Positions 11,565 through 44,853 are shown, numbered from the stretch's first letter. The stretch: DNA of 44,853 bases from Candidatus Copromonas avistercoris (nom. illeg.) (GCA_018713185.1 DVFQ01000071.1:1-44853); one strand, 5' to 3'. Made by a program: numbers and translations. Notes: generated from the letters alone by a model not told the origin.

Positions 11565-11594
11565 AGAGGCTCCGGCGCTAACGCCGGGGCCTCT
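11565..11594. terminator. Bidirectional terminator-like hairpin between convergent mfd and ABC ATPase
   Basis: AGAGGCtCCGGCGctaaCGCCGGgGCCTCT. Confidence 0.5.
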
Positions 11595-12357
11595 GCTTCG
11601 TATAGAAAAGCTCCGCCAGTTTTCCCGAGGTCATCGCTTTGCGCTCCTCTCCTTTAAGATCCAGGACGATACGGCCGGAGTCCAGCATGATGGTGCGGTC
11701 CCCGACGGAGAGGGCATAGTCCATATCGTGGGTGATCATTAAGGTCGTGATCCGGTCCCGGGCCACGATTTTTTCTGTTACAGCCATTACCTTTTCCGCG
11801 GCGCCCGGATCCAGGGCGGCGGTATGCTCATCCAAAAGGAGGAGCTTCGGTTGGGCAATGGTGGACATTAAAAGGGAGGCTGCCTGCCGCTGTCCGCCGG
11901 AGAGAAGTCCCATCTTTGTTTTCATGCGGTTTTCCAAACCCATGTCCAGCTCGGAAAGAAGCTCGCGGAAATATTCATGGTCCTTCCGGTTGACGGCAAA
12001 GAAGGAACGGGAGGCCTTCCGGGTATAAGCCAGAGCCAGATTTTCTTCAATGGTCATATTGGGAGCCGTGCCCCGCAGGGGGTTCTGATAAAGGCAGCCG
12101 ATGTTGAAGGCACGTTTGTAGTCCTTCTGCCTTGTAATATCCTCGTCTCCAAGAAAAATCTGGCCGCTGTCCGGAAACAGGCGTCCCAGAATGGTATTAA
12201 AAAGCGTTGTTTTTCCGGAACCGTTGGAGCCTAAAACGGTAATAAACTGTCCGGCCGGAACCTCCAGATCCAGATGATCCAGGGCCAGCTTTTCATTGAC
12301 GGTTCCCGGTTCAAAAACCTTCGTCAGCTTTCGGATCGAGAGCGGGCTGCTGCTCAT
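11578..12357 (-). CDS. ABC transporter ATP-binding protein (TrpZ-like)
   Basis: Walker A GSNGSGKTT, signature LLSGGQRQAASLL, Walker B LLLLDEHTAALDP. Confidence 0.88.
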   Translation of the reverse strand: MSSSPLSIRKLTKVFEPGTVNEKLALDHLDLEVPAGQFITVLGSNGSGKTTLFNTILGRLFPDSGQIFLGDEDITRQKDYKRAFNIGCLYQNPLRGTAPNMTIEENLALAYTRKASRSFFAVNRKDHEYFRELLSELDMGLENRMKTKMGLLSGGQRQAASLLMSTIAQPKLLLLDEHTAALDPGAAEKVMAVTEKIVARDRITTLMITHDMDYALSVGDRTIMLDSGRIVLDLKGEERKAMTSGKLAELFYTKQRPRR

Positions 12358-13310
12358 AGGGAATCGCCTCCTTTCTTATTGCCTGACAGCTTCTTTTTCA
12401 GCAGAGGAAGCGCCAAAGCGGCCACAACGATCAGCGTGGATAAAAGCTTGACCGCGTAGCTGGGCATATCGATCATGTAAGCCGCCTGGATCATGATCCG
12501 GTATAACAGGGAACCGGCCGCGGCGGAAATCAGTCCGCCGACGATCCCTCTGTCACCGAAGATGACCTGGCCGATGATCACGGAGGCCAGCCCCATGACC
12601 AGCATACTGCTGCCGCAGTTCAAATCCGCGTACCGCTGCTGCTCGCAGAGAAGAGCGCCGGATAGGGCTACTAAAGCATTGGCCAACATGACGCCGGCAG
12701 TTCGGGTCAGATCCGCGTTGATGGAGGAGGAACGGACCATTTCCTCGTTGTCACCGGTGGCGCGCACCGCCATGCCCGGCCGGGTGAAGAAGAAAACGCT
12801 TAAGGCCGCCACCAGGATCACAACGATCACGCCGGTCAACAGGAAAACCTGCGCGTTGGAGTCCAAGTACGGGGATTGAATCCCGCTTAAAAGAGCGGAA
12901 AAATTCTTGTAGATCGTCGGACTGGCTTCGTTGACCTGCGCTCCCACGGAATTGGTCGTGGTATATTGCAGATACAGGTTGGACTGGCCGCCCAGGACGG
13001 CGTAGTTGACGGTATAAAGTCCGGCCGCCACCAGGATCCCGGACAGGATGGCCTCAATTTTCAGCTTCGTCTGCAGGAAGGCCGTAAAGAAGCCCGCCAG
13101 AGCGCCGGCGGCGGCTCCGGCGAAAAGGCCGAGGACCGGATGGCCGGCGATGGTAACGGCCGCGCAGACCGTCATGCCGAAAACAAAGCTTCCGTCTACG
13201 GTCAGATCCGGCGTTTTCAAGATCCGGAAGGTTACGAACACGCCGAGAGCCATGGGAGCGTAAAGCATCCCCTGGCTCAAAGCGGAAATCAGCATACTGT
13301 AAAAAACCAT
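12354..13310 (-). CDS. ABC transporter permease (TrpY-like, BPD_transp_2 family)
   Basis: Polytopic protein, TPDLTVDGSFVFGM; 4-bp overlap with the ATPase gene. Confidence 0.85.
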   Translation of the reverse strand: MVFYSMLISALSQGMLYAPMALGVFVTFRILKTPDLTVDGSFVFGMTVCAAVTIAGHPVLGLFAGAAAGALAGFFTAFLQTKLKIEAILSGILVAAGLYTVNYAVLGGQSNLYLQYTTTNSVGAQVNEASPTIYKNFSALLSGIQSPYLDSNAQVFLLTGVIVVILVAALSVFFFTRPGMAVRATGDNEEMVRSSSINADLTRTAGVMLANALVALSGALLCEQQRYADLNCGSSMLVMGLASVIIGQVIFGDRGIVGGLISAAAGSLLYRIMIQAAYMIDMPSYAVKLLSTLIVVAALALPLLKKKLSGNKKGGDSL

Positions 13311-13325
13311 ATCTGTTCTGCTCCC

Positions 13326-14444
13326 TTATTGATTGAAATGGCTGGTGCCGTCGGCTTCCACCAGAACCTCGTAGCCCTCATAGGCGGATTCCGGGAAATC
13401 GGCGCCGAACCGGCCGGCAGCCTGGAGATTCACATACTGGGCGTAATTACTCAGAGTTTCGTAGGGAAGCTCGGAGGGCGCCGCGCCGTCCATGATCTTA
13501 AGCGCTATGTCGGCTACCTGCTCTCCCAGCTGGACATAATTGACTCCGACGGTGGCAAAGCCTCCATCCGCGACCATGGAATCCGCGCCGCAGTAGATGG
13601 GGATTCCGGCCGCGTAGGCGGTATCCGTGTAGGTGGCCATAGCAGATGCGATGGCATTGTCATTTCCGGTATAGAGGGCGTCCACTCCATCGGCGATCAG
13701 GGATTCCGCCGCGGTCTGCAGCTCGGAAAGATTGGCGATGGCAGCTTCCTCATAGGCGATTCCCGCTTCATCACAATAAGCCTTGGCGGCATTGATGGTG
13801 GATACGGAATTGGTCTCGCTGGAGGTATAGAGGAAACCGATGGTTTCACAATCCGGCTGGAAATTGAAGATCAGCTTTACAATTTCAGCGGCGGGGATGT
13901 TGTTGGAAACACCGGTGATATTCTGGCAGTCGTCTCCGGTGAGGCCGGCCGCTGCCGGATCGGAAACCGCGGCGAACACGATCGGGGTGGAGTCGCCGTC
14001 AAACACCGTTTTGGCCGACTGGGCGGTGGAGGTGGCGATGGGGATCACCAGATCCGTCCCTTGGGAACGGACGTTGTTAAGGATCGTCGCCAGAGCGGAC
14101 GTATCGTTGTTGGCGTTTTCTGTCGTGATTTCAATGTTTTTTCCGGAAGCCTCCAGGCCGGCGATGATCGTATCCCGGATCTGATCCAGAGAAGTATGGC
14201 TCATGGGCTGTACGATGGAAACGCGGTACGGCTCTCCTGTCTGGGCGGAGCCAGAAGCTGCGGCAGAGGTCTCAGAGCTGCCCGCTGTGTTTTCTTCGTT
14301 TTCCACAGCCGTGCTGCTTTCCGCGGCCGCGCCGGGCGCCTCTGCCCCGGAAGCCGATGTCTCGGAAGCGGACGTCTGGCTGCAGGCGGAAAGAGAAGCG
14401 GCAAGGAATACGGTTGTTAATAAAATAGAAATATTTTTTTTCAT
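13326..14444 (-). CDS. ABC transporter substrate-binding lipoprotein (TrpX-like, ABC_sub_bind family)
   Basis: Lipobox LSACSQ; PIATSTAQSAKTVFDGDSTPIVFAAVSDP, YTGNDNAIASAM. Confidence 0.85.
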   Translation of the reverse strand: MKKNISILLTTVFLAASLSACSQTSASETSASGAEAPGAAAESSTAVENEENTAGSSETSAAASGSAQTGEPYRVSIVQPMSHTSLDQIRDTIIAGLEASGKNIEITTENANNDTSALATILNNVRSQGTDLVIPIATSTAQSAKTVFDGDSTPIVFAAVSDPAAAGLTGDDCQNITGVSNNIPAAEIVKLIFNFQPDCETIGFLYTSSETNSVSTINAAKAYCDEAGIAYEEAAIANLSELQTAAESLIADGVDALYTGNDNAIASAMATYTDTAYAAGIPIYCGADSMVADGGFATVGVNYVQLGEQVADIALKIMDGAAPSELPYETLSNYAQYVNLQAAGRFGADFPESAYEGYEVLVEADGTSHFNQ

Positions 14445-14478
14445 GATCGGATCCTCCTGGTTTTAATTTTGTGAGATG

Positions 14479-15423
14479 TTATTGCGGGCAGTGATCGCTT
14501 TCGTTGATGGAAGCGGCCATTTCAATATGCCGGCGGATTACTTCGCAGGATGCGTTGAACTGTTCTTTTTCATCGGGAGACAACTCCAGCTCGATCACGG
14601 CTTCCACGCCGTTTCTTCCGATCCGGCAGGGAACGCCGCAGTGGATCCCGGTCTGACCGTATTCGCCCTGCAGCAGGACGGAGGCTGGAAGGATCCGCTT
14701 CTCATCCCGCAGGATGCAGGCGGCCATTTCCGTCAGCGCGCGCCCGATGCCGAATTCGGTGGAACCTTTTCCTTCAATGATGTCCATACCGGCCTGGCGG
14801 GTCTTTGTCAGGATTTCTTCTTTATTCAGATTCAGCTTTGCAAAGGGAACGCCGCCAATGGTGACGGAGGAGAAGGGGATCATGGACGAATCCCCGTGTT
14901 CTCCCATGGAGAACGCTTGAATGCTTCTGCGGTCCGCGCCGGAAGCCTGGCTTAAGCAGCGGATCAGGCGGGCCGTATCCAAAAGAGTGCCGGTACCGAA
15001 GCACTGGCGCCGGTCCATGCCCAGCTTTTTCCTTAAAAAATCAGCGGCGATATCCGCCGGGTTGGTGATGGTCACCACCGGACAGGTTAAGGAAAGCGGT
15101 TTCAGCTCATTTGCCAGAACGCTTAACAGTTCCACGGAGCGGCCCAGGAGATCCAGCCGGGTCTGGCCCGGAAGCCTCGGTTCGCCGATGGCGACGACGG
15201 TCAGCGCCGCGTCCCGGCATTCAGAGCAAGAGCCCGCCCGCACGGAAACGGCATGGTCCATAAAGCTGACGCTGTCGGCCACATCCAAAGCCTGCGCTTC
15301 GGCTTTTTCCTTTATGAGGTCCACAAGGACGATCTCCTCACAGATTCCGGATGCCGCAAGGGCATAGGCGCAATGGCTGCCCACATGTCCGGCTCCGATG
15401 ATAACGATTTTTCGGTTTTCCAT
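14479..15423 (-). CDS. L-lactate/malate dehydrogenase-family 2-hydroxyacid dehydrogenase
   Basis: MENRKIVIIGAGHVGSHCAYAL Rossmann motif, catalytic GEHGDSS, TRLDLL; RBS just upstream; ORF-track start 15555 is over-extended. Confidence 0.88.
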   Translation of the reverse strand: MENRKIVIIGAGHVGSHCAYALAASGICEEIVLVDLIKEKAEAQALDVADSVSFMDHAVSVRAGSCSECRDAALTVVAIGEPRLPGQTRLDLLGRSVELLSVLANELKPLSLTCPVVTITNPADIAADFLRKKLGMDRRQCFGTGTLLDTARLIRCLSQASGADRRSIQAFSMGEHGDSSMIPFSSVTIGGVPFAKLNLNKEEILTKTRQAGMDIIEGKGSTEFGIGRALTEMAACILRDEKRILPASVLLQGEYGQTGIHCGVPCRIGRNGVEAVIELELSPDEKEQFNASCEVIRRHIEMAASINESDHCPQ

Positions 15424-15490
15424 TCTACATTCCTCCTTGATCAAGTGATGGATCAACTGCGCTGGAAGTGGGCAAAGCCGTTCGTGAAAT

Positions 15491-15529
15491 AAAAAAAGCC
15501 CCTGACCCGAATATATACGGGTCAAGGGC
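15491..15529 (-). terminator. T-box leader intrinsic terminator
   Basis: On minus strand: GCCCTTGACCCGTATATATTCGGGTCAGGGGC + TTTTTTT. Confidence 0.85.
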
Positions 15530-15762
15530 GAAATATACAAATTCCGCGGTGCCACCTTGATTCAGTCCTCTTCTAAAAAAGAAAGAAGGACCCTCCAGCG
15601 GGATACCAGCATATCCCCGACGGGTAACGTCCGTCCCAACGTCGGCCCATTTCGGACCGCCCTCCGCAGACCATATTACTCAGATTCCCATGGGAAGCTT
15701 CCACCGTCCTTCCCTCTCTGCAATGAGAATTACCTGCCTTTTTCCTGCATCATCGGTTTATG
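15491..15762 (-). ncRNA. T-box leader, probable tRNA-Trp type
   Basis: On minus strand: AGGUGGCACCGCGG T-box, AGAGAG/GGUGGAAG Stem I motifs, terminator; UGG at complement(15671-15673) in the hand-folded specifier loop; antiterminator UGGC predicts G73. Confidence 0.85.
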
Positions 15763-15768
15763 GCAGTC

Positions 15769-15797
15769 ATTATACGGGATGGTCTGGGAATTGTCAA
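15769..15797 (-). promoter_or_regulatory. Consensus sigma-A promoter driving the T-box operon
   Basis: TTGACA complement(15792-15797), 17 bp, TATAAT complement(15769-15774). Confidence 0.85.
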
Positions 15798-17746: not shown

Positions 17747-18042
17747 TATAGTGGAAACAGCGAAGATGGGAACAAGTAGCAAGGGCCAATGCTGAACAGA
17801 AAGCAGCCGGCGGATGAGAGGCGCGCAGTATGTTTTTGCGAATACCTCCCGGAGCTTCACACCGAACGGGACGCCAAGTAGGCTGTGACGGAGAGCGCAC
17901 GTTAACGCGCAGAGTCGGAAGCTGGCCGCAGGGCTGCAATGACTCACAGAGCCAAAACGGCGTGAGCCTTTTGGGAACAACAGGTGGTAACACGAAGCGG
18001 ATATGCCTCGTCCTTTTGAATAAGGACGGGGCTTTTTATTTG
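17747..18042 (+). ncRNA. T-box leader (Tyr) upstream of tyrS
   Basis: GAA-TAC specifier candidate (TAC 17843-17845), AGGTGGTAACACG T-box with UGGU (A73), terminator GCCTCGTCCTT...AAGGACGGGGC-TTTTT. Confidence 0.85.
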
Positions 18043-44671: not shown

Positions 44672-44768
44672 TTTCAAGGGTCGAAAAAATCGCATAGTTA
44701 AGCGGTTTCTCGGCTTTTGAAATACCTCGTGGCAACGATTTGGCAACACTTTTTCATTATTCATAAAA

Positions 44769-44815
44769 AGAGAGCTAACTGATTTTGATTCGTCAGTTAG
44801 CTCTCTTTTTTATTA
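44769..44815 (+). terminator. Rho-independent terminator-like hairpin downstream of guaA
   Basis: AGAGAGCTAACTGA...TCAGTTAGCTCTCT + TTTT. Confidence 0.8.
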
Positions 44816-44853
44816 TAGTTACTGATTGTCGTAAAAATGATAATTTGAATTAT

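Follow-up and report, generated by a model that had tools for sequence, protein, structure and literature searches.

What role would a dehydrogenase play in a gene set placed under a Trp-specific T-box together with a tryptophan importer? This question is raised by a locus in the 44,853-nt stretch of Candidatus Copromonas avistercoris (nom. illeg.) DNA analysed here as a whole (GCA_018713185.1 DVFQ01000071.1:1-44853, the window). The initial annotation described there a consensus promoter, a T-box leader with terminator and four tightly spaced genes, and all of these are present on the minus strand from 15797 to 11578, in the order promoter, T-box leader, terminator, dehydrogenase, substrate-binding lipoprotein, permease and ATPase. 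The sigma-70-type promoter (TTGACA-17-TATAAT, 15769..15797) matches the consensus at 12/12 positions. It is followed by the leader with Stems I, II and III and the antiterminator (15521..15762), and by a competing terminator of 12 bp and T7 (15498..15529), the leader end folding at -29.7 kcal/mol (z -3.6). The first gene encodes a 2-hydroxyacid dehydrogenase of the LDH/MDH family (314 aa, 14479..15423, start ATG at 15423; PF00056 and PF02866). Behind it a TrpX-like substrate-binding lipoprotein (13326..14444; PF04392), a TrpY-like permease (12354..13310; PF02653) and a TrpZ-like ATPase (11578..12357; PF00005) stand in TrpX-Y-Z order. Because the gaps within the four genes are only 34, 15 and -4 nt, one transcript is likely for the dehydrogenase and the transporter, and the genes likely form the single operon that had been proposed.

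On comparative sequence evidence, we regard the leader as securely a Trp-specific T-box. The covariance model RF00230, run over the whole window, matched 15762-15521 on the minus strand with E 7.4e-14 and 72.3 bits at a relaxed threshold, which is lower than the Rfam gathering score of 93. The window's tyrS T-box, which is undisputed, also lies below that score, with 80.6 bits. Since both fall under the curated cut-off, a scan of the window at the gathering threshold reported neither, and both were found at relaxed thresholds. Alignment to the covariance model alone left an uncertainty of one or two bases in the specifier (AUG, UGG or GGU in register). The specifier was settled as UGG (15671..15673) on account of the spacing in the tyrS T-box, 15 related leaders and the G73-matching bulge. 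UGG stands one nucleotide before the 5-bp base helix UGCAG/CUGCG, exactly as in the tyrS T-box (UAC-C-UCCCG), between this conserved helix and the covarying Stem I helices, and it is invariant in 15/15 aligned leaders. The base that follows it varies in this alignment (U, A). By eye, this base is also G in L095, L096, L109 and L142.

In the 15-leader alignment, 96.4% of the cells of the written structure were paired, against at most 47% for slid versions. Changes on both sides were seen in 22 of 50 pairs, and none of 500 shuffles was as high. Stems I, II and III and the antiterminator are thereby backed by covariation, and the earlier hand fold of Stem I turned out to be correct, since compensatory changes in the 15 sequences preserve both its CAG/CUG pairing and its upper helix. 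The antiterminator bulge (15551..15554) reads UGGC, the complement of G73-CCA, and that of the tyrS T-box reads UGGU, both as previously claimed. Moreover, the tRNA-Trp(CCA) of the same genome ends in ...CCCCU-G73 and matches the UGGC bulge, so that structure, specifier and discriminator all bear out the Trp assignment. The reading was calibrated on other Clostridia, where UGG and the box AGGTGGCACCGCG stand before genes that we take, from their N-terminal sequences, to be trpE-, trpD-, trpB- and trpS-like. Transcription of the unit would be expected to respond to uncharged tRNA-Trp.

The association of the dehydrogenase with TrpXYZ extends well beyond this window. Loci were gathered by scanning named genomes with the dehydrogenase and were then annotated by tblastn. 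At least 18 further loci share the order T-box-LDH-X-Y-Z. The 18 named ones have T-box-dehydrogenase-X, followed by Y and Z as far as the contig allows; in 13 the full set was recognised by pattern, L091 lies on a short contig, and for L097, L108, L109 and L136 Rfam gave the confirmation. Their hosts include Anaerobutyricum hallii, Pseudoflavonifractor phocaeensis, Fournierella massiliensis and Youngiibacter fragilis. In addition, a genome of the same genus (G001) has the T-box and the dehydrogenase where a contig stops, and a later search gave two further units with UGG and the same binding-protein signature (L285, L288). The four-gene unit is rare and patchy; when 301 genomes of one family were sampled, 4 had it. 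This distribution suggests transfer. Two spirochaete MAGs (L104, L129) contain dehydrogenase-X-Y(-Z), before which no T-box was seen, and nest within Bacillota on the tree. Other arrangements exist: in L142 the order is T-box-X-dehydrogenase-Y-Z, and in L070, L112, L113, L118, L120 and L158 the dehydrogenase converges on an X-Y-Z unit with a UGG T-box of its own. As the partnership recurs in different gene orders, an accidental neighbour is unlikely, and on this gene-order evidence the link is a selected one. Our literature search found no paper joining T-box, trpXYZ and LDH, and none on indole-lactate uptake as a Trp source; lactate dehydrogenase goes unmentioned in the main texts of PMC2494555 and PMC3766115.

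The binding protein offers a clue to what is imported. Its best NCBIfam match is TrpX (NF041285) with 245 bits, under a cut-off of 390 that was reached by none of 292 sampled genomes of the class. With its PF02653 and PF00005 partners, this match upholds the TrpXYZ-like transporter of the initial annotation. The nearest solved structures are 3LFT and CD0873, which bind Trp and Tyr, respectively (PMC6816091). The ligand contacts of Streptococcus suis TrpX are T108, A127, T129, D152, N233 and Q273 (PMC9382623); unlike this protein, the window TrpX has Ser for T129, Asn for D152 and Tyr for Gln273, the last standing where the pneumococcal Trp binder has an indole-contacting Gln (PMC6816091). To judge from its charge, D152 may hold the amino group of the ligand. 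Asn occupies this position in 30/30 aligned dehydrogenase-linked TrpX proteins and Asp in 30/30 comparators of the class; Ser replaces T129 in 29/30 of the former, and Thr is unchanged in the 30 comparators. Hence the fixed differences between the two sets include two named ligand contacts. Binders of Trp, Tyr and Phe likewise have Asp at this contact. The comparators include three X-Y-Z units with a UGG T-box (L281, L282, L283), from genomes without a dehydrogenase of the window's family, whose TrpX keeps Asp, and Asn as a mere mark of Trp specificity was rejected on this ground; Asn tracks the dehydrogenase and not Trp as such. Multiple origins of Asn were considered, but the tree gave one clade and a single Asp-to-Asn event. 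Asp is kept in two more distant dehydrogenase-linked groups (the L119 type and the lone-TrpX type).

By profile, the dehydrogenase is closest to L-lactate dehydrogenases. It scores 299.4 bits against TIGR01771, under the equivalog cut-off of 303.55, and 254.9 bits against the best malate dehydrogenase profile, PRK06223, whose cut-off is 283. The catalytic residues R109, D168, R171 and H195 are all kept, and T246 and I250 are LDH-like. Residue 102 is Arg, not the Gln102 of LDH, in every Trp-linked member, and the a2G helix contains Gly; both features are usual in malate dehydrogenases. Arg102 is the main unexplained fact of this locus. It could be there to stack on the indole ring, but it could also point to a dicarboxylate substrate. 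The clade has a distinctive motif, GKxSTEFGIG (GKGSTEFGIG in the window). In Clostridium vitabionis (L100), the gene of a dehydrogenase of the same clade, with no TrpXYZ beside it, overlaps a CM_2 chorismate mutase gene, and this overlap makes a tie to aromatic metabolism plausible. Placing the enzyme in Trp metabolism, as the initial annotation did, has gained plausibility in this respect; the reductive Stickland role given to it is unsupported. A sister clade is found in MetN-MetI-dehydrogenase-MetQ-GlcD-aminotransferase loci, an arrangement that spells the conversion of hydroxyacid to oxoacid and then to amino acid. A search of 8 MetNIQ-dehydrogenase loci for a SAM/Met riboswitch found none at gathering scores, a threshold that weak T-boxes also escape.

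The genome background is partly consistent with a need for external Trp. Neither trpC nor trpB is present in this genome (83.6% complete) or in that of its sister species (G001, 92% complete), so the host is apparently a Trp auxotroph by gene content. Among 16 searched genomes with the co-directional unit, 10 lack both genes, 1 has trpB only and 5 have both. Auxotrophy is not the rule, since trpC occurs in 6 of the 18 genomes tested.

We tentatively propose, at a little under an even chance, that L-indole-lactate is imported, with or without Trp, oxidized to indolepyruvate and transaminated to Trp; what we infer here is the substrate, the direction of the reaction and a preference of the binding protein for the hydroxyacid. 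Uncharged tRNA-Trp would pair with the UGG specifier and, via G73-CCA, with the UGGC bulge, stabilizing the antiterminator and giving read-through into the four genes. The TrpXYZ-type importer would then take up a Trp-family aromatic compound, and the dehydrogenase would oxidize L-indole-3-lactate, the 2-hydroxy analogue of Trp, to indole-3-pyruvate, from which a transaminase encoded elsewhere would form Trp. The initial annotation had pointed to a paradox in Trp starvation inducing a Trp-consuming enzyme. The paradox is real and favours the oxidative direction, because a Trp-making reaction removes it. In favour of the indole-lactate reading stand the Trp T-box, the partnership kept in several gene arrangements, the Asn and Ser of the dehydrogenase-linked TrpX proteins, the chorismate mutase overlap in L100, the missing trpC and trpB, and the sister MetNIQ loci. 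However, several facts count against it. They are Arg102, the single origin of Asn, its presence in S. pyogenes TrpX as well (PMC9382623), the groups that keep Asp, the Tyr of the binding protein, the lack of a transaminase among the four operon genes, the genomes with trpC, and the convergent units, in which the dehydrogenase is outside T-box control. In addition, the NAD-linked oxidation of a 2-hydroxyacid runs uphill if it is not coupled.

The equilibrium of LDH-fold enzymes favours reduction, and this speaks for the opposite direction. Here the reduction of indolepyruvate to indole-lactate would serve as an electron sink or a Stickland branch, induced with the importer. Such enzymes exist, as an aromatic LDH of Bifidobacterium makes indole-lactate in vivo (PMC8556157). 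Such a reaction would waste Trp exactly at the shortage that the T-box reports, and 18 other loci have retained the T-box in front of the enzyme. The Stickland form fares no better in the genome content. An FldABC/FldBC cluster was sought in the 83.6% complete genome and not found. What the genome has is an adjacent 2-hydroxyacyl-CoA dehydratase pair (L276) near genes that, from sequence, we presume to be glutaconate CoA-transferase-like and decarboxylase-like. One subunit of this pair gives a HadB-like profile match below its cut-off, and we assign the pair to the HgdAB type in a Gct/Gcd/HgdAB-like cluster. The Fld-type reductive aromatic Stickland pathway likewise involves aryl-lactates, but it uses (R)-aryl-lactates and the FldBC dehydratase, whereas the LDH/MDH fold yields (S)/L acids. 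The reductive role thus loses its proposed Stickland setting, and we consider it improbable.

There are two other readings. If Arg102 means a dicarboxylate substrate, the enzyme would be malate dehydrogenase-like, acting on a non-aromatic compound such as oxaloacetate or 2-oxoglutarate, with an indirect tie to TrpXYZ, for example through redox balance in starvation. Arg102 in all Trp-linked members and the Gly of the a2G helix agree with this, but T246, I250 and the profile scores (299 bits for LDH against at most 255 for MDH) do not, and the linkage to a Trp importer is kept in several arrangements, with a chorismate mutase in L100; on balance this is rather unlikely. A plain Trp importer next to an enzyme broad on 2-oxo and 2-hydroxy acids (branched-chain, Met, aromatic), the Asn of TrpX being neutral for the ligand, is also unlikely in our view, if somewhat less so. 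Streptococcus pyogenes TrpX has Asn at the D152 position as well (PMC9382623), the change from Asp arose once, and sister dehydrogenase clades adjoin Met transporters. Nevertheless, Asp is kept in the UGG-T-box TrpX of genomes that lack the enzyme, and neutrality would have to account for fixed differences at two named ligand contacts.

Several known systems resemble the locus in part. The closest is S. suis trpXYZ, in which a Trp T-box also precedes genes for binding protein, permease and ATPase with a homologous TrpX, and whose leader was shown to be Trp-responsive and to require its specifier (PMC9382623); in the window, unlike in S. suis, a dehydrogenase lies between T-box and trpX. Trp-T-box-controlled trpXYZ is already known, and what differs here, as read from the sequence, is the dehydrogenase gene inside the unit together with the Asn and Tyr of TrpX. 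The Tyr-binding lipoprotein CD0873 of Clostridioides difficile shares family and pocket positions with the window binding protein, but has Asp and Glu263, the latter for the Tyr hydroxyl, in place of Asn and Ala (PMC6816091). The type 4 LDH of Bifidobacterium (aldh) is similar in being an LDH-type enzyme for indolepyruvate and indole-lactate, shown for aldh and presumed for ours, and we liken the two by description. In contrast to our locus, aldh adjoins a transaminase and a haloacid dehalogenase; the part of the source used here mentions neither importer nor T-box, and outside bifidobacteria no homologue was found there at an identity cut-off of 60% (PMC8556157).

A wider form of the indole-lactate proposal is possible, although we lean against it. 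The unit would be a dedicated system for scavenging the hydroxy analogue of Trp, induced by uncharged tRNA-Trp and made of a binding protein re-tuned to L-indole-lactate (Asp to Asn, Thr to Ser), its importer and an L-indole-lactate dehydrogenase. With the MetNIQ-dehydrogenase-GlcD-aminotransferase loci, it would belong to a general route by which anaerobes use hydroxyacid analogues as amino-acid sources. In any case, the T-box directly ties a dehydrogenase subfamily that falls under the cut-offs of both LDH and MDH models to a physiological state, Trp shortage. Indole-lactate is a well-studied gut metabolite made from Trp by Bifidobacterium (PMC8556157), and Trp auxotrophs could draw on what Bifidobacterium and other gut bacteria release. 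If our proposal is true, indole-lactate would also be a currency between gut bacteria, and the unit would mark a cross-feeding route from Bifidobacterium to Clostridia.

The tyrS T-box of the window (17754-18018, plus strand) scores below the Rfam gathering score and has a UAC specifier, and the antiterminator bulge UGGU that the initial annotation had read there is borne out. In Anaerobutyricum hallii (L095:7577-7935) the specifier is UGG, yet the bulge is GGUGGU instead of GGUGGC; either this bulge mismatches tRNA-Trp, for which G73 is expected, or the discriminator differs. In a spirochaete MAG, the leader 5′ of the dehydrogenase gene (L104:7780-7902) harbours an apparent Stem I 5′ half of T-box type, TTGATGGGAATAAAGTAGG...CAGAGAGC, which passes directly into the dehydrogenase coding start; an Rfam scan of this leader gave no match. 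This Stem I-like half is perhaps the relic of a transferred T-box.

The window's genome carries a second TrpX-like importer, divergent and of the Asp type (Asp at the S. suis D152 ligand contact), at G000:C150:7297-8415, where TrpY- and TrpZ-like genes adjoin the TrpX-like gene. At five other loci (L075, L076, L077, L079 and L081), a single TrpX-like gene w/o adjoining permease or ATPase genes is divergent from a dehydrogenase gene of the same subfamily. Near the end of the window, the AT-rich inverted repeat AAAAAGAGAGCT...AGCTCTCTTTTT (44755-44821) is probably a bidirectional terminator.

In Clostridium vitabionis (L100:821-2343), the dehydrogenase gene overlaps a chorismate mutase gene, whose product appears ACT domain-like by eye in its C-terminal part. 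Three loci (L071, L083 and L084) have the order MetN-MetI-dehydrogenase-MetQ-GlcD-aminotransferase-M20, in which no known riboswitch was found among the loci scanned. Their dehydrogenases fall in the LDH clade at 42-44% identity, and these loci may serve the use of methionine hydroxy analogue, both D- and L-.
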